Assembly (NCBI GenBank): GCA_022827625.1
Contig: JAJEIE010000029.1
Span: 62,001-126,000, forward strand
Source of the DNA: Candidatus Poribacteria bacterium
Lineage (GTDB): Bacteria; Poribacteria; WGA-4E; WGA-3G
DNA length: 64,000 bases
Direction: 5' to 3'
A program made the translations under genes and the position numbers. This document shows, piece by piece, positions 44,407 through 52,738 of the stretch. Within the stretch, counting starts at the first letter, position 1. Each line of letters begins with the position of its first letter. The notes beneath the pieces were generated by a model. The model ran no database searches. It saw nothing but the letters and a program-made list of their open reading frames with translations, and was not told the origin of the DNA.

Positions 44407-45504
44407 ATGAATAAATTGAAGTCATACGGACAACGTAAAGCACAGGCAAATTTTGTCCGTGTGGACAAAATTTGGTTCAGGCAGAAAAGTTTAAAACCGA
44501 TATTGCATTTAGCGATTCTTATAACAGCGGCAATCGCTTGTTCTGTCTTTGTTGCGCTACCGACTGCGGAAGGATGGACAGTCCTACAAGAACGCGACCC
44601 AAACGTTCGGGATTACATGTCCATCACTTTTACAAGCCAGAACACCGGCTGGGTGGTTGGTGCCGCCTCGTTTGAGGATTTTGAAAATCCGGGCTTCATC
44701 GGTTACACAACAGACAGTGGTGCCACATGGCACAAGTCAGAAGTTCAAATCCCTGCCGATTTAGCTGAGGTCTACTTCTTAGACGATAAACACGGCTGGG
44801 CAGTCGGTGCGAACGGCACAATTGTAGCAACTGATAACGGTCAAGACTGGGAATTACAAACGAGCAAGGTTGGCAACGGACTGAAGGGCATTTACTTCGT
44901 TAATAAAGACATCGGACTCGCCGTCGGGGAGAGCGATACAATCCTCTCTACAAAAAACGGTGGACGCTCATGGAAGGTGCTCCAAGGCGGTCAACTCGGT
45001 GCCGTTGGTGATGACGATGCCAATATGTACAACGCTGTCCAGTTCCTTGATGAAGAAACCGGCTGGCTTGCGGGTGTCCGTGTTAGCCCGAGCACACAGG
45101 GACAGAGTGCCTTAATTCAGAAAACCACGGACGGTGGACAGAGCTGGGTCACGCAAGAAACGGGTAAAGAAGATATTCTCGAAGACATCTTCTTCCTTAA
45201 TGCCTCAATGGGTTGGGCAGTCGGTGAAAACGGTGTAATCCTTCATACCGACAACGGTGGCGAAAGCTGGACAGAGCAAACCAGTGGTACACAAGAGACA
45301 CTACGCAGTGTTGGCTTTGCAAACGAGAATAATGGCTGGGCGACCGGTGGTGACTTTGGGGTCGGTGCGATCCTACATACCACTGATGGTGGCGAAACTT
45401 GGGAACTTGAAGATTCCACAGAGAAATTAGTTAAAGTTTTTGTGCTTGATGGAAAAAATGTGTGGTTAGCAAGTTCCACCGGCGCCATCATGCGGGCAGA
45501 ATAG
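44407..45504 (+). CDS. Ycf48/BNR-repeat beta-propeller protein
   Basis: 365 residues, SD AAGGAG. One membrane or signal segment at about 32-52 (HLAILITAAIACSVFVALP), then repeated units such as GWAVGANGTIVATDNGQDW, GLAVGESDTILSTKNGGRSW, GWAVGENGVILHTDNGGESW and GWATGGDFGVGAILHTTDGG, each with a BNR-like D-x-G-x-x-W turn. The repeats match the Ycf48/HCF136 propeller, known in cyanobacteria as a photosystem II assembly factor; in non-photosynthetic bacteria the fold is a general protein scaffold. Probably periplasmic; long N-terminal extension before the membrane segment. Confidence 0.83.
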   Translation: MNKLKSYGQRKAQANFVRVDKIWFRQKSLKPILHLAILITAAIACSVFVALPTAEGWTVLQERDPNVRDYMSITFTSQNTGWVVGAASFEDFENPGFIGYTTDSGATWHKSEVQIPADLAEVYFLDDKHGWAVGANGTIVATDNGQDWELQTSKVGNGLKGIYFVNKDIGLAVGESDTILSTKNGGRSWKVLQGGQLGAVGDDDANMYNAVQFLDEETGWLAGVRVSPSTQGQSALIQKTTDGGQSWVTQETGKEDILEDIFFLNASMGWAVGENGVILHTDNGGESWTEQTSGTQETLRSVGFANENNGWATGGDFGVGAILHTTDGGETWELEDSTEKLVKVFVLDGKNVWLASSTGAIMRAE

Positions 45505-45604: not shown

Positions 45605-46777
45605 TTGGAAGTATCCACGTTCGCGACGCGAATGGATCGATTGGGGACAGAATCTGCGTTTGAAGTGCTTGCTAAAGCGAAACAATTAGAGGCAGAAGGT
45701 AGAAACATCGTCCATTTAGAAATAGGACAACCGGATTTCCCAACACCGATTAATATTATTGAGGCAGCATATAAAGCAATGAAGGACGGACACACCGGCT
45801 ATTGTCCATCCGCTGGCGTGCCGGAGTTTCGCGAGGTTGTCGCACATCACATAACTGAGACCCGCGGGATTAGCGTACATCCAGATGAGGTTACCGTGAC
45901 ACCCGGTGCGAAGCCAATTATTTTCTTCACCATTTTGGCATTGATCGATGACGGCGATGAAGTCATTTATCCGGAACCCGGCTTCCCGGTCTACGAATCC
46001 GTTATCGATTTTATTGGTGGCAAAGCCGTTCCGCTGCCCCTTCGCGAGGAAGTAGATTTCCGATTCCGGCTCGAAGATCTCGCCGATGCAATCTCTGACC
46101 GAACGAAGCTGCTCATTCTTAACTCACCTCAAAACCCGACAGGTGGGACACTAACACCAGAAGACCTTAAAGCGATCGCTGAACTGGCACAAAAACACAA
46201 CTTTTATGTGCTGACAGATGAAGTGTACTCTCGTATCCTCTACGAAGGCAAACATCATAGTGTTATTAACCTTCCCGGTATGAAAGAACGAACAATCCTC
46301 ATCGAGGGACATTCTAAGACTTACGCAATGACAGGATGGCGACTCGGATACGGTATCGCACCCCAAGAAATCGCAGATAAGATTACACAACTCACAATCA
46401 ATTCTAACTCTTGTACTGCGACTTTTACACAAATCGCTGGAATAGAAGCATTGACAGGTCAGCAGGCCTCTGTTACAGAGATGGTAACCGAGTTTCAGAA
46501 ACGCCGTGATGCGATTGTGGACGGACTGAATGCTATTGAAGGCGTGAGCTGCATCAAACCGTTGGGTGCCTTTTATGTGTTTCCCAACGTCACACAACTC
46601 CCGCTCTCGTGCGAAGCACTTGCTGATTATCTGATGGATGCGGCAGATGTTGCCCTATTGCCGGGCACCTCCTTCGGCAAATACGGTGACGGTTACCTCC
46701 GGCTCTCGTATGCTAATTCATTGGAAAATATCCAAGAGGCATTAGACAGAATGGAAGCTGCAATCATGAAATTGTAG
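45605..46777 (+). CDS. Class I aminotransferase (aspartate aminotransferase-like)
   Basis: 390 residues; TTG start at 45605 with GGAGG at 7 nt. IVHLEIGQPDFPTP, NPTGGTL (NPTG motif), TDEVYSRILYEG and the PLP Lys in EGHSKTYAMTGWRLGY, then RLSYANS with the substrate-carboxylate Arg, place it in the AspC/AAT-Ib group of fold type I aminotransferases. It likely makes aspartate or aromatic/branched amino acids in the cytoplasm. The downstream homoserine kinase suggests a link with aspartate-family amino acids. Confidence 0.92.
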   Translation: MEVSTFATRMDRLGTESAFEVLAKAKQLEAEGRNIVHLEIGQPDFPTPINIIEAAYKAMKDGHTGYCPSAGVPEFREVVAHHITETRGISVHPDEVTVTPGAKPIIFFTILALIDDGDEVIYPEPGFPVYESVIDFIGGKAVPLPLREEVDFRFRLEDLADAISDRTKLLILNSPQNPTGGTLTPEDLKAIAELAQKHNFYVLTDEVYSRILYEGKHHSVINLPGMKERTILIEGHSKTYAMTGWRLGYGIAPQEIADKITQLTINSNSCTATFTQIAGIEALTGQQASVTEMVTEFQKRRDAIVDGLNAIEGVSCIKPLGAFYVFPNVTQLPLSCEALADYLMDAADVALLPGTSFGKYGDGYLRLSYANSLENIQEALDRMEAAIMKL

Positions 46778-46912: not shown

Positions 46913-47848
46913 ATGCCTCAAACTTTCAATAGTGCGTTAAACGAAAAAGTCACCGCTCGTATCCCTGCAAGCACGACGAATTTGGGTCCCGGTTTTGATG
47001 TCTTAGGGCTCGCTTTACAACTCTACAGCACAATCACATTGGAACCGTCCAACACCGAAACCGAAGTCGTCGTAAGCGGTGTAGATGCCGATAAGATACC
47101 GAATACGCCAGAACACGTAGCGTTTCAAGCAGTAGAATTAGTTTTCAAGCGAAGCGGAACAAAACGTCCCAACGGTTTTAAACTACACATTGACAACGGA
47201 ATACCTGCAATCCGTGGGTTAGGTGGTAGTGGTACAGCCATTCTGGGTGGCTTGTTAACAGCGAACATCTTATGTGGGCTGCCATTTTCTGATGCCGAAC
47301 TTCTCAACTTCGCGACAGAAATGGAAGGACACCCAGATAATGTAGCGGCTTCACTATACGGTGGTATTGTCGTTTCAGCACAAGAAAACGGACATGTGCA
47401 TACCATTCGGTTGACGTGTCCCCTGGAACTCTCCATTGTGCTTGCAATCCCGAATTTTCCGCTTTCAACCAAACAAGCGCGGGAAGTTCTACCAAAATCG
47501 GTTGACTTCGCCGATGCAATCTACAATACGAGCCGTAGTACATTACTAATTGCCAGTATTGCGACGGGGCAATTTGAAATGTTGAAAGTAGCCATGAAGG
47601 ATAAGCTGCACCAACCCTATCGCACCTCACTCATTCCTGGATTTAACGATGTCGCTGAAGCTGCGATTGCCAACGGGGCACTCAGTGTTGCACTGAGTGG
47701 TGCAGGACCGACTGTCGCAGCCTATTGTCTGGAACACGCCGAACAGGTCGCAAAACAGATGCAAACCGCCTTCAACACACATCAGATAATCTGTGATATT
47801 AAGATTCTGAAAGCAGATGCCGACGGCGCGAATGTCTGGTCCCCCTAA
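46913..47848 (+). CDS. thrB: Homoserine kinase
   Basis: 311 residues, SD TAGGA. VTARIPASTTNLGPGFDVLGLAL is the ThrB opening and IPAIRGLGGSGTAILGG the GHMP ATP-binding loop (GLGGSGTA in place of the more usual GLGSSAA). MEGHPDNVAASLYGGIVVS and VALSGAGPTVAAYC complete the family. It phosphorylates homoserine with ATP in threonine synthesis. The downstream P-type-ATPase-like gene starts 7 nt after its stop (or overlaps it), so the two are co-transcribed. Normal length. Confidence 0.93.
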   Translation: MPQTFNSALNEKVTARIPASTTNLGPGFDVLGLALQLYSTITLEPSNTETEVVVSGVDADKIPNTPEHVAFQAVELVFKRSGTKRPNGFKLHIDNGIPAIRGLGGSGTAILGGLLTANILCGLPFSDAELLNFATEMEGHPDNVAASLYGGIVVSAQENGHVHTIRLTCPLELSIVLAIPNFPLSTKQAREVLPKSVDFADAIYNTSRSTLLIASIATGQFEMLKVAMKDKLHQPYRTSLIPGFNDVAEAAIANGALSVALSGAGPTVAAYCLEHAEQVAKQMQTAFNTHQIICDIKILKADADGANVWSP

Positions 47849-47855
47849 AAACACG

Positions 47856-50726
47856 ATGTCCAATTTTCATACGGAAAACATTGCATCCATATTGAATAAA
47901 TTCAACGCCAACATGGACCAGGGGTTGAGTGCAGATGCCTTTCAGAAAGCGAAAGCGCAGTATGGCAAGAACGAGCTGGATCCAGCGAAAACAGCCTTTT
48001 CCCTTAAGGCGTTTTTAGGACCCCTCTGCACATGGCGCACTCTCGTCTTGACGTTAGCAACACTCACCCTCATCATCTGCTTTGCTAATGGGGCAAGCGG
48101 CATCAGTCTCCACACCATAGGACTCGTTGGTGCTGTTTTGGCTATGCACATCGGTTGGGCATATCTGACAGATCACCGCAGTCAGAATCGTGATAACAAC
48201 AGACACCAACTGATGGTACACAGTATCAAAGTTATCCGACAAGGAAAAATTGATTACTGTCCACCTGAGGACATCGTGCCAGGGGATCTACTTCCCTTGA
48301 GTTCTGGTGACTATGTTCCAGCTGATGCGAGAATTATTGAATCTGAAGGCCTGATGATTGACGAATCAGCACTCTTTGGGACTGAGGAACCTGTTGCGAA
48401 GATCAGCATAGATATTTCAGAGGCAAATGTGCCACCACAACGGCAAAAAAACATGGCGTTTGCTGGGACGTATGTCACAGCCGGACACGGCTTTGCGATT
48501 GTCGTACAGACAGGTAAGGATTTAGAAATCAAGAAGCAACGTCGCGATGTCCATACTCCTGGCATCCCCAATACGTTAGCCGAGAACGAGACGCAAAGTC
48601 TGCATACTATTATGAAAGTGGCTGGCGTAATCGTTGCTGGTGTAGCTGTGGGAATCGCGTGGTGGTTTGAATATCAGAATCAGTCAACTGATTGGTATGC
48701 CCTGATATATCTCGGTATCCTTTTTGTTCTTGCCGCCGCTCCACACGACGTTGTTTCCTTGGTCCGACTCTCTTTTTCGCAGCACACCCAAAAATTACTG
48801 GAGAAAGGTGTTATCTTACGTAACTCACGTACCCTCGAAAAATTGAGTCGTATTACTGCCTTCTGTGCAAATGAAAACGGTCTCTCAACGACACGCGCGC
48901 TGACGATATCCAACCTGTTCGTGGATGAACAACTCATTGACAGCCATACGTGGCAAACGTGGTTAAACTCCTTACAAGATTCCACGCCGGAAGAGCGACA
49001 AGAGACAATCGCGTCAATGCCGACGGGCGGAAAAATCCCACAAGGTGCGCCGCACTTGGTGTTCACAGCCGGTCTTGGCACTTCCAATGGACAGCAGTCG
49101 AATAATTCTGAGACCTCCGATACGGAAGAAAACTGGTCAACAGAACAACCCGTTGGTGTTCTTTCATTGCAAGCAGCTATCCAGAAAACGATGGAACAAC
49201 TCGGCTATCAACCCAATGCCGTGAGTGCCCAACTTCCATTGGTGGATTCATACCCAGCTACACGGAACTATGGATATCAAACGCAAGTGTTTGAGTCGGG
49301 TCCAGAAGACTATCTCAACGTCATCTTCGGAGAGGGACAAACGGTGCTGGATACCTGTGCTTATGTCCTCATCGAGGGTGAACTTGTCCCGATGCAAGAC
49401 GATCGTTACGAGAGGTACTGTGAGGTTATTGACTATCTACTTACCACCAGAGCGGAGGTTTATGGTGTCGCTTTCCACTCTTCCGATGTCATTTTGAAAC
49501 CACAAGAGGTAGAAGATAATGCGATCTTTTTAGGGTTTATTGCCCTCTCTGTCAGCAGCGGCGAAGAAACAAAGGAGGTGCTGAAATCTAGCCTTGATAC
49601 CGGACTCAAAGTAATCCTCATGGCTGAAGATAAAAAACAGCAGACTATTGACTTCGCTAAGGACCTCGGGCTGATTCACAATCGAAAGTCTGTCGTATCA
49701 AGCGAAGAACTGGACGCCGTCTCACGTGAAGAATTCGATGACCACGTCTCAAAATGGCTCGCTTACTCCCAACCGACATGGGAACAGCGCCGGAACATTG
49801 TTCTCAGTTTGAAACGCCAAGGACATTCCGTCGGGTTTTTGGGTGAAAACAGAAACGATTTGCGAGCGATGAACGTCTCAAATATCACCCTTGCAGATAG
49901 TAGTAAGGCACCGCATGTCGTACAAGCATTTGCCGACGGATTGATTGATAAAAAGGGTTTCCAAGCAGTGAGAGATGGATTGCTTTACGTACGCGAAGCG
50001 TATCACAACATCGCAGGTTTTTTAAGGTGGAGTTTCTCCTGTACGCTCTCCTTACTGCTGACCCTTACTTTTGGGACAGTTTTACACTACCTCTATAAAC
50101 TCCCTATGCCTTTGACGTTGACGCAGGTAATTTGGGTGCAATTTCTCTTAACGTTGCTGCCATCATTAGGAGTCGGTACGGAAAAGATATTCGCCGATGA
50201 AAAACATCACCGTCCGACGCTATTTTCAGGTTCACGTTTCTTGTCCAAAACAACACCGGTCGATATTATTTGCCGCTCTGTAACGATTAGTCTAATGACG
50301 ATTATCCCGTTCTTCTTTCTTCTCTGGCAGTCTCCGGCTCTCTCCGATCCGCTTGGCGTCTCGACATTACTGAGAGATGTATTCTCGACTTCACATTCAA
50401 CAGATCCAAACGCCTCAGATATTTCGGTAGCACGCACAGTGGCATGCACCACACTGATTTTTACGCAATTGACGACCTGCTGGCAAACGTTGAGATACCC
50501 CTGGGAATCACTTTTTCACAGGATGTTCGCGAACATGCGGCTGCTCATCACGCTCCTTACCGTCATAGGGCTTCACCTGATCGCTGTTTATGTCGAACCT
50601 CTCCGAGAATTTCTGGGGATGGCACATCTCAAATGGGAATGGCAATGGGCACTTCTGTTTAGTTTGACCTTATTCTTCCTACCGCTGAACTTAGCGATCA
50701 ACGCCAATCCTGATGACGATTATTAG
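47856..50726 (+). CDS. P-type ATPase homologue lacking all catalytic motifs (pseudo-pump)
   Basis: 956 residues from ATG 47856 (47832 or 47817, overlapping thrB, are possible). Domain order is that of type II cation pumps: N-terminal GLSADAFQKAKAQYGKNELDP, membrane helices, actuator domain with IRQGKIDYCPPEDIVPGDLLPLSSGDYVPADARI, more helices, cytoplasmic catalytic region, six C-terminal helices. The key motifs are altered: TGES reads FGTE (174-177), PEGL reads PHDV (296-299), the phosphorylation loop DKTGT reads NENGL with Asn339 for Asp, and GDGVND reads GENRND (663-668). Length, fold and membrane pattern are intact with no stop or frameshift, so it looks like a maintained pseudo-enzyme. 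Confidence 0.85.
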   Translation: MSNFHTENIASILNKFNANMDQGLSADAFQKAKAQYGKNELDPAKTAFSLKAFLGPLCTWRTLVLTLATLTLIICFANGASGISLHTIGLVGAVLAMHIGWAYLTDHRSQNRDNNRHQLMVHSIKVIRQGKIDYCPPEDIVPGDLLPLSSGDYVPADARIIESEGLMIDESALFGTEEPVAKISIDISEANVPPQRQKNMAFAGTYVTAGHGFAIVVQTGKDLEIKKQRRDVHTPGIPNTLAENETQSLHTIMKVAGVIVAGVAVGIAWWFEYQNQSTDWYALIYLGILFVLAAAPHDVVSLVRLSFSQHTQKLLEKGVILRNSRTLEKLSRITAFCANENGLSTTRALTISNLFVDEQLIDSHTWQTWLNSLQDSTPEERQETIASMPTGGKIPQGAPHLVFTAGLGTSNGQQSNNSETSDTEENWSTEQPVGVLSLQAAIQKTMEQLGYQPNAVSAQLPLVDSYPATRNYGYQTQVFESGPEDYLNVIFGEGQTVLDTCAYVLIEGELVPMQDDRYERYCEVIDYLLTTRAEVYGVAFHSSDVILKPQEVEDNAIFLGFIALSVSSGEETKEVLKSSLDTGLKVILMAEDKKQQTIDFAKDLGLIHNRKSVVSSEELDAVSREEFDDHVSKWLAYSQPTWEQRRNIVLSLKRQGHSVGFLGENRNDLRAMNVSNITLADSSKAPHVVQAFADGLIDKKGFQAVRDGLLYVREAYHNIAGFLRWSFSCTLSLLLTLTFGTVLHYLYKLPMPLTLTQVIWVQFLLTLLPSLGVGTEKIFADEKHHRPTLFSGSRFLSKTTPVDIICRSVTISLMTIIPFFFLLWQSPALSDPLGVSTLLRDVFSTSHSTDPNASDISVARTVACTTLIFTQLTTCWQTLRYPWESLFHRMFANMRLLITLLTVIGLHLIAVYVEPLREFLGMAHLKWEWQWALLFSLTLFFLPLNLAINANPDDDY

Positions 50727-50758: not shown

Positions 50759-52738
50759 TTAGACCCAAAATCCGTAGGTAGGAATTCCTGCAATAATACC
50801 GAGGATCGTCCAGAGACTCCCGATTGTAAATTCTCCCAAGATTAATCCCAAAAAGAACGGCGCTATTTTTCGATGCTTCACCACACCCCCATATTGAAGA
50901 ATAAGCCATTTGACTAACCAACTCATGAAAAGGCAACTCCATGTAACGTTCATGCCCCAACTCGTAGAGATAGCAAACCCAGCGGGGTGGAACGGCCACC
51001 AGACAAACCGCATCCTAAAAAACATTAGCACCGTCGTCAACAGAAAGCCGATTCCCATAAACCCACTTTCAGGTATAAGCGTTTCTTCGGGTGCCTGTAA
51101 CCATCCTGTGAGACGGCGATACGGCTCTATGCCGAAAGCACTCAGAGAGGGCCAATAGGCGCGAACTTCCATGCCGAGTCGATAGCCGCGGTCAATTAAC
51201 GCCCAAAATCCTGCCAATGAACCTAAAACAGTCGCCAGCGTTAAGGCAAAGATGATGCGCCGCATTGTCATGTTTGTCCGCTCCATGATTTTGAAACCTT
51301 CCAACTGGTGGGGCATCGGATGGCTCCGATACGCACGATTAATGAACCAAAACATGGAGAACATAATAAGGTTGCCTCTCCCCAACCGGCGTGTGCCGAC
51401 AGTCCGAGTCAATATTTCGTCTGGTCCCGAATAGTGTAAATCATGTACAGGGGTCCCTAACTCGGCGCGCATCCGAGTTATCGCGATAGAAATCATATAA
51501 TAGATTACAAAAAACGCGAACATCACCCACAACTCGGCACCTCCATAGTAGCAGAAGACGACAAGAAACACCATTACGGCGATAAGACAGAGCGTCGCGG
51601 CTCGGTAAGACATAGGTTCAGATGTCCCTGAATCCGAGGCGGTCGCCTCCGTATTTTCCCGTTGGGTATCTAATCCAAGAACGGTGCGTGCGACGTGTAA
51701 AAGATGTCGCCGACTTGCCCAAATTGCTAAAACACACAGCGCGAGATAACCGCCTGATGCCTGCTCATTCATGTACGGAAAGCGTGGCAGACTCCGAAGT
51801 CCAAGAGCGGCACCGAGAACGCGCATAAATCGCCAATACCAGAAGAAAAACCAACATGAAAATGAGAGGTCCAAGGGAATAAAGAAACCGAGCCCGATAG
51901 CAAATGGATAGAGTGAAAATGGGATTCGTCCCATAGCGTTCCAAGGACTTTCTGTAAAGATTTGAAAACTTCGCACACGCGTCCGGAATTCAGGTAAAAT
52001 TGGGTACAGAAAGTTGATACCATTCCAGAGCGCGAGCGCACCCGCAAGCCCAAAGCCGAGCCACATCAATCTATTTTGAAATAGGCTATTTCGTGGTGTT
52101 TCTGTCAACTGGAGCGGAAGTTGAATTATCGGATAACTGAGTTTTTCGTGTTCGATCCACTGCTTTCGGACGATTATATTGATGCAAAGCATGCCAAAAA
52201 TCAACACAGTAATAAAGGCGGTCCACCAAAGTACAGGCGTTGCCCATCCGAGCAATGTTCTCACCGTATAAAGGGGTAACTCGCCTTCATAGTAGCCGTA
52301 TAAAAGCGTTGTATCACTGACGGTGAGCCACTGCGGGAGAAAGGGAACAAACAACTGCTGCCATTCATTCTCTGGCGTTGCAAAGCGAAACGCATGTCCG
52401 AGCATTGGCACCAAAATTTCAAGCATATCGTGCCCAGCAATACCCGAAGCGATGGAAAGCATTAGGTAAACAACTACCAATTCGCTCTGTGCTAACATCA
52501 AGCGCGGCAGGAAACGCCGTAACAATTGGTTCACACCGATTACCACGAATAGACTAAAGATTACATTAAAAAAGAGGGAAATCGTCACAGGATGTCCTGA
52601 ATACCGGATAACTTCCATCTCAATAACCCAATAGCAGTTAATCGGTATTAGGAAAACAGCGATAAGTATAGATTTGAGTGTGACACCGTGGGCAGGAACT
52701 TGAGACGCTACTAACGAACGGGAAGTTTCAACTTCCAT
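50759..52738 (-). CDS. DUF6785-like multi-span membrane protein
   Basis: 659 residues with about twelve to fourteen hydrophobic segments (ILIAVFLIPINCYWVIEMEV, LMLAQSELVVVYLMLSIASGIAGHDMLE, WWTAFITVLIFGMLCINIIV and others). The pattern SELVVVYLMLSIASGIAGHDMLE, WIEHEKLSYPIIQLPLQLTE, RMRAELGTPVHDLHYSGPD and FHPAGFAISTSWGMNVTW fits the DUF6784/DUF6785 pair known from Planctomycetes and Poribacteria. The layout recalls oligopeptide-transporter-like carriers, but no substrate is known. It stands alone on the minus strand, converging on the pseudo-ATPase gene. Confidence 0.8.
   Translation of the reverse strand: MEVETSRSLVASQVPAHGVTLKSILIAVFLIPINCYWVIEMEVIRYSGHPVTISLFFNVIFSLFVVIGVNQLLRRFLPRLMLAQSELVVVYLMLSIASGIAGHDMLEILVPMLGHAFRFATPENEWQQLFVPFLPQWLTVSDTTLLYGYYEGELPLYTVRTLLGWATPVLWWTAFITVLIFGMLCINIIVRKQWIEHEKLSYPIIQLPLQLTETPRNSLFQNRLMWLGFGLAGALALWNGINFLYPILPEFRTRVRSFQIFTESPWNAMGRIPFSLYPFAIGLGFFIPLDLSFSCWFFFWYWRFMRVLGAALGLRSLPRFPYMNEQASGGYLALCVLAIWASRRHLLHVARTVLGLDTQRENTEATASDSGTSEPMSYRAATLCLIAVMVFLVVFCYYGGAELWVMFAFFVIYYMISIAITRMRAELGTPVHDLHYSGPDEILTRTVGTRRLGRGNLIMFSMFWFINRAYRSHPMPHQLEGFKIMERTNMTMRRIIFALTLATVLGSLAGFWALIDRGYRLGMEVRAYWPSLSAFGIEPYRRLTGWLQAPEETLIPESGFMGIGFLLTTVLMFFRMRFVWWPFHPAGFAISTSWGMNVTWSCLFMSWLVKWLILQYGGVVKHRKIAPFFLGLILGEFTIGSLWTILGIIAGIPTYGFWV

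Follow-up and report, generated by a model that had tools for sequence, protein, structure and literature searches.

The window analysed here, a stretch of 64,000 nucleotides from a poribacterial genome, carries on its plus strand, at 47856..50726, a gene for a putative P2-type pseudo-ATPase (hereafter the pseudo-pump) of 956 amino acids plus stop. The frame had been predicted to be open over 956 residues, and this was borne out from the ATG at 47856 to the stop at 50726. An in-frame ATG lies further upstream at 47817 (969 amino acids, open to the same stop); the conserved start is the ATG at 47856, and same-genus orthologues begin with M(S/A)NFHxEN. Three genes precede it on the same strand: one for a YCF48/PSII_BNR-like repeat protein with an N-terminal hydrophobic stretch (44407..45504; PF14870, 2.7e-26), one labelled from its sequence as an aminotransferase (45605..46777), which we take to be aspC, and, next upstream, thrB for homoserine kinase (46913..47848; TIGR00191, 284.5 bits against a cut-off of 168.25), which ends 7 nucleotides before the pseudo-pump start. 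To our knowledge, Poribacteria are not a phylum known for photosynthesis, yet a gene resembling a YCF48/PSII assembly factor is present. Downstream, on the minus strand, lies a convergent gene for a membrane protein with the Pfam families DUF6785/DUF6784 (50759..52738), which we do not count as belonging to the unit. The DUF6785/DUF6784 protein is itself strongly conserved among relatives (dN/dS 0.036-0.064).

We searched 84 genomes of the phylum by profile, 82 in the Poribacteria class together with the sister lineages G060 and G061. The gene, whole or in part, is present in 81 of the 82 class genomes; the sole class genome without a copy (G064) is 81% complete, and thrB was not found there either. 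The original prediction had the pseudo-pump coupled to thrB. This holds in 69 of the 77 loci with enough flank, where thrB lies directly upstream (55/55 in family f1, 1/1 for L048 and 13/21 in the remaining families), and fails in eight, of which five belong to f4 and one each to f5, f6 and the sister class f9. A YCF48-like gene is found upstream in 38 of 46 loci. The DUF6785 gene follows the pump in 54 of 55 f1 loci and at L048 (1/1) and in none of the 23 loci of f2-f9; the upstream genes on the same strand are thus conserved more widely than the convergent one downstream, as fits an operon. At one locus, L069, the YCF48-like gene stands directly before the pump, with a gap of 54 nucleotides, and thrB is absent there. 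In genus g5, the aminotransferase gene and thrB lie together elsewhere, away from the pump, which follows genes that are presumably L27-like and Rne-like. Hence, the pump has been relocated in this genus and the protein does not depend on the location of thrB. No pump was present in the thrB neighbourhood examined in G060 and G061. A strict functional tie to thrB is weakened by the g5 relocation and by these pump-less neighbourhoods. That the gene follows thrB suggests that it is co-expressed with amino-acid genes, but does not point to a direct biochemical link.

Predicted fold, catalytic site and ion site

The protein matches three Pfam families, E1-E2_ATPase (2.2e-24), Cation_ATPase_C (5.7e-17) and Cation_ATPase_N (1.2e-7), while the Pfam search of the protein returned no P- or N-domain family; PF00122 is present in all 22 members of a 22-row profile alignment (A1). 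Its best solved relative in the PDB is Listeria LMCA1, matched at 1.4e-47 by the single sequence and at 6.9e-141, spanning the whole chain, by a 22-sequence profile. The generic P-type ATPase family TIGR01494 accepts the protein (70.6 bits against a cut-off of 62.3), and its scores fall far below the cut-offs of the equivalogs TIGR01522 (PMR1 type; 195.7 against 798.3 bits) and TIGR01116 (SERCA type; 139.7 against 703.4 bits). A model from 35 sequences reached a pLDDT of 80.2 and a pTM of 0.71, with the proviso that the alignment included 18 P2 pumps from IMG/VR contigs, which may have pulled the model to the canonical fold. An earlier model from 18 close relatives, without intact pumps, was discarded (pLDDT 36.2, pTM 0.24). 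Comparison with SERCA had been proposed as a check, and the predicted fold matches both SERCA and SPCA: the model superposes on the CaE1 state of SPCA1 at 4.4 Å over 865 residues (Z 32.6) and on SERCA1a E1 at 6.2 Å over 897 residues (Z 32.9), and the 50 PDB matches listed have Z of 28.6-34.3 over 652-897 residues. As in real pumps, the modelled M4 helix is broken around P296. With A, N and P domains, a ten-helix membrane domain and the E1-E2_ATPase profile, the protein belongs to the P-type ATPase superfamily as a fold and evolutionary family; judged by sequence, profile and predicted fold, the frame at 47856-50726 is a P2-type (SPCA/LMCA1-like) member.

All four hallmark motifs are changed in the window sequence in the way first described. 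TGES has become FGTE (residues 174-177, 48375..48386), with E183 replaced by T176; PEGL in M4 has become PHDV (residues 296-299, 48741..48752), with the helix-breaking proline retained; DKTGT has become NENGL (residues 339-343, 48870..48884), with the phospho-Asp replaced by N339 and K352 by E340; and GDGVND has become GENRND (residues 663-668, 49842..49859), with D703 replaced by E664 and D707 kept as D668. The losses extend beyond these motifs to the TGD loop, the ATP-site lysine and the ion ligands of M5 and M6. TGD reads AED (residues 590-592, 49623..49631), so that the phosphate-loop glycine is now Glu591; the ATP-site lysine (K515 of KGA) is F491 (49326..49328); and the ion-ligand positions hold H297 in M4 and T730, L733, Q762 and T766 in M5/M6. 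R645 (49788..49790) stands at the K684 position, where a basic residue is thereby retained.

These positions were followed through 78 near-full-length poribacterial copies and 21 aligned intact pumps, of which 20 come from outside the class and phylum and one from G061; five partial copies shorter than 820 amino acids (L068, L070, L071, L072 and L135) were left out of the 78. Residue numbers are what we take to be those of SERCA, with positions placed via the motifs of an intact aligned pump. The TGES glutamate E183 is retained in 1/78 pseudo-pumps against 21/21 intact pumps, K352 in 1/78 (it is Glu in 69/78) against 21/21, and T353 in 4/78 against 21/21. K515 (Phe in 67 copies), the TGD glycine and the Mg2+ aspartate D703 of GDGxND are each found in 0/78 against 21/21, and the N-domain phenylalanine persists in 4/78. 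Since the phospho-Asp D351 is still present in 30/78 (21/21 in intact pumps), loss of this aspartate does not define the family. Among the ion ligands, E309 of PEGL in M4 is retained in 8/78 pseudo-pumps against 20/21 intact pumps, N768 in 0/78 against 21/21, E771 in 0/78 against 19/21, N796 in 4/78 against 20/21 and D800 in 0/78 against 18/21; those of M5 and M6 have mostly become T, L/Q, Q/H and T. A plain motif search found DKTG[TS] and GDGxND in none of the 78 copies and in all 21 intact pumps. Whether orthologues share the altered motifs was another check proposed, and the Mg2+ aspartate, the ATP lysine and DKTG[TS] are indeed absent from all 78. Residues of the architecture are kept, including the PGD aspartate, the PAD aspartate, G516 and N893 (each 78/78), as well as D707 (77/78) and P296 (75/78).

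The family therefore lacks what marks a P-type ATPase as an enzyme, namely a phosphorylatable aspartate in DKTG[TS], the TGES glutamate, the Mg2+ aspartate of GDGxND and the TGD loop, and it lacks the Ca2+ ligands of M4, M5 and M6 that mark a P2A Ca2+-ATPase. Read from the alignment, the protein has lost the residues with which pumps bind ATP and Mg2+, become phosphorylated and dephosphorylated, and coordinate ions through charged side chains. Judged from these losses, the pseudo-pump very likely does not pump, and a scaffold, sensor or regulatory role, as put forward in the original prediction, is plausible.

We rank a scaffold or sensor as the most likely reading, and its main rival is a passive conduit, in which the protein would be a channel or facilitator that needs no ATP and may carry a neutral solute. 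Where intact pumps have charged ligands in M4-M6, the pseudo-pumps mostly have the uncharged residues Q, T, H and L, the prolines of M4 and M6 are kept (P296 in 75/78 and P803 in 76/78), and the gene sits among amino-acid genes, with thrB linkage in 69/77 loci. However, the replacement residues vary across genera whereas a substrate site would need uniformity, and we consider a conduit unlikely.

Some residues of the dead site appear to be under a new constraint. Glutamate or aspartate occupies the TGD glycine position in 76/78 copies (16/18 when each genus is represented once), a basic residue (Lys or Arg) the K684 position in 77/78 and 18/18, and D707 is present in 77/78 and 17/18. Working pumps have K684 and the TGD loop turned towards the phosphoryl group. 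The stretch around the TGD glycine aligns without gaps, and, to judge by the alignment, the acid at this position could replace the phosphate, fixing the P domain in one state. Across the 78 sequences, 45 columns are newly fixed, of which four are left with one sequence per genus, all in the membrane half (W725, L755, R807 and P943; W725 and P943 each in 17/18); most of the 45, by this count, reflect close kinship. New constraint is hence claimed only for these four and for the acid at the TGD glycine.

The same cluster could be read as a rewired enzyme, with a changed chemistry that uses Glu352 (69/78), acid 626 (76/78), basic residue 684 (77/78) and D707 (77/78), plus Asp351 in some lineages (30/78). 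However, the ATP site is gone (K515 in 0/78, the N-domain Phe in 4/78), D703 is absent from all 78 copies and only 10 of 18 genus representatives carry Glu352, so that we regard this reading as improbable.

Other pumps, origin and selection

A search for a true paralogous pump had also been suggested, and this genome yielded no further P2-type pump. It has one other E1-E2_ATPase gene, with DKTGT intact, whose product is presumably CopA-like. With PF00690 (Cation_ATPase_N), which we take to mark P2/P3 pumps, no second match was found in any of the 82 class genomes, each having at most one; the class matches listed fall at the pseudo-pump, and G060 and G061 have three each. The class thus appears to be without a working P2/P3 pump, as far as its partly incomplete genomes show, and the pseudo-pump is not the spare subunit of a paralogue. 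In addition to its pseudo-pump, G060 has, on other contigs, an intact P2A pump split into two pieces at contig ends (L110 and L109) and another P-type ATPase with DKTGT (L111); G060 is a natural control for pseudo-pump function.

That the pseudo-pump regulates, as a partner, an active P-type pump of its own cell might be envisaged from the intact P2A pump that accompanies it in G060, or from the CopA-type ATPase with DKTGT in the genome of the window. However, a role as regulator of an active P2 paralogue is rejected for the class, as none of its 82 genomes has a second P2/P3 pump or more than one Cation_ATPase_N match, and CopA-type pumps are related only distantly (24% identity in a partial alignment). 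We thus consider such a partnership more improbable still than a changed chemistry.

G060 carries a full pseudo-pump (L108) with NKKG, PAGL and GKNSSD, while G061 has an L108-like N-terminal fragment at a contig end together with an intact pump (L113). Outside the phylum, 36 matches at E <= 1e-100 were found among 155 sampled genomes, all with DKTGT; one of these, L210, stops before GDGxND. In a tree of 47 rows (26 of the 78 copies and the 21 intact pumps), the pseudo-pumps lie on one side of a branch with an SH-aLRT of 100, and the same grouping was obtained (SH-aLRT 99) without the ion-site columns, the catalytic loops and both the P and N domains; the two trees were inferred quickly and have long branches, which leaves the exact branching order at the deep forks uncertain. 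The tree fits one loss event that preceded the radiation of the poribacterial class.

Selection was assessed by the Nei-Gojobori method with 95% bootstrap ranges, the original prediction having held that a dN/dS near 1 would indicate decay. Over 11 pairs, dN/dS was 0.075-0.20, well short of 1. The window gene gave 0.156 (0.101-0.232) against L043, 0.084 (0.063-0.112) against L044, 0.093 (0.074-0.117) against L032 and 0.075 (0.059-0.095) against L034, so that the bootstrap bounds of these four pairs span 0.059-0.232; the seven pairs not involving the window gene gave 0.096-0.202. For L032-L035, the pump had values of 0.075-0.093, whereas aspC and thrB had 0.031-0.063 and the YCF48-like neighbour 0.076-0.103. 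Every computable domain slice is constrained, and the slice with the former DKTGT site had a dN/dS of 0.017-0.139 in three of four pairs, the fourth being without synonymous change. The only copy seen split between two frames is L068 (4190-7055), from a genome (G058) that is 64% complete; this could be a real break or an assembly error. The loss of all motifs and this split copy could suggest a decaying pseudogene or an assembly artefact, but decay is ruled out by the 78 near-full-length open frames and dN/dS (upper bootstrap bound at most 0.232 in the four window pairs), and the occurrence of the gene in chromosome-level assemblies (e.g., OY282374.1 and OX638316.1) and the single clade formed by the copies make either origin extremely improbable.

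Interpretation and known systems

A retained pseudo-enzyme rather than a decaying gene, as had been proposed, is strongly supported by the shared losses, dN/dS, the predicted fold and the lack of a P2 paralogue, and the combination of a homologous fold, lost catalytic residues and purifying selection is that of a pseudoenzyme. We read the protein as an ancient P2-type pseudo-ATPase of P2A descent and probably as a membrane scaffold or sensor of one conformation. By sequence, profile and predicted fold, it is a P2 pump of ten helices, complete with the A, P and N domains, that has lost its catalytic and charged ion-ligand residues, apparently once and before the class radiated. Purifying selection has since preserved it at full length, and no further P2/P3-type protein was found in the class genomes. 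The pseudo-pump would not run an E1/E2 cycle and may act as a membrane-embedded scaffold or sensor in one main conformation. The E/D at the TGD glycine may fill the old phosphate pocket opposite the basic residue and Asp707, as a built-in stand-in for the phosphoryl group, and partners would dock onto the A domain, which is conserved, and onto those residues of the M5-M10 half that are newly fixed. More tentatively, the protein may be a non-pumping receptor or scaffold throughout the phylum, the only P2-type protein left in the main class, whose state is locked by the internal acid and which serves a process shared with its YCF48-like, aminotransferase and homoserine kinase neighbours; this fuller version is a doubtful one.

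P-type ATPases are read as pumps on sight. As TIGR01494 accepts the protein above its cut-off, automatic annotation may well credit Poribacteria with an ion pump, and the apparent absence of a working P2/P3 pump in the class alters predictions on calcium handling. With an apparent single loss, class-wide retention and visible conserved residues, the pseudo-pump is a natural experiment on a pump fold without ATP. Searches of open-licence papers, judged by titles and abstract starts, showed no bacterial pseudo-P-type ATPase; if the fuller version above is true, bacteria would here have their first pseudo-pump that is both stand-alone and phylum-wide.

The P2A Ca2+-ATPases Listeria LMCA1 (6zhf), human SPCA1 (8iwp) and SERCA are among the best profile and structure matches to the pseudo-pump, which shares with them the whole fold, the domain order, the ten-helix plan, the PGD and PAD motifs of the A domain and the M4 proline. 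Unlike them, it is without TGES, DKTGT, TGD, KGA, GDGxND and the charged ion ligands. Pseudoenzymes in general show the same retained fold and lost catalytic motifs; one pseudoenzyme paper (PMC10211241) is listed with 0 occurrences of the term P-type ATPase. The parallels found are all eukaryotic, namely TMEM94 (PMC12134183; listed also under PMC13322241) and PfGC-beta. Human TMEM94/ERMA has a P-type-like fold and an A-like domain without TGES, its nearest known structure is SPCA in E2~P and its phosphorylation cycle is disputed, according to PMC12134183. It differs in being a eukaryotic ER protein with a proposed phosphorylation site at D417 (same source) and serves here as a parallel. The apicomplexan guanylate cyclase beta, PfGC-beta, carries a degenerate P4-ATPase-like domain, as described in PMC6592433; this domain is P4-like, eukaryotic and cyclase-linked, whereas the pseudo-pump of Poribacteria is a stand-alone protein. 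What a P-type fold can do other than pump, a question debated for human TMEM94, can be tested in this bacterial protein.
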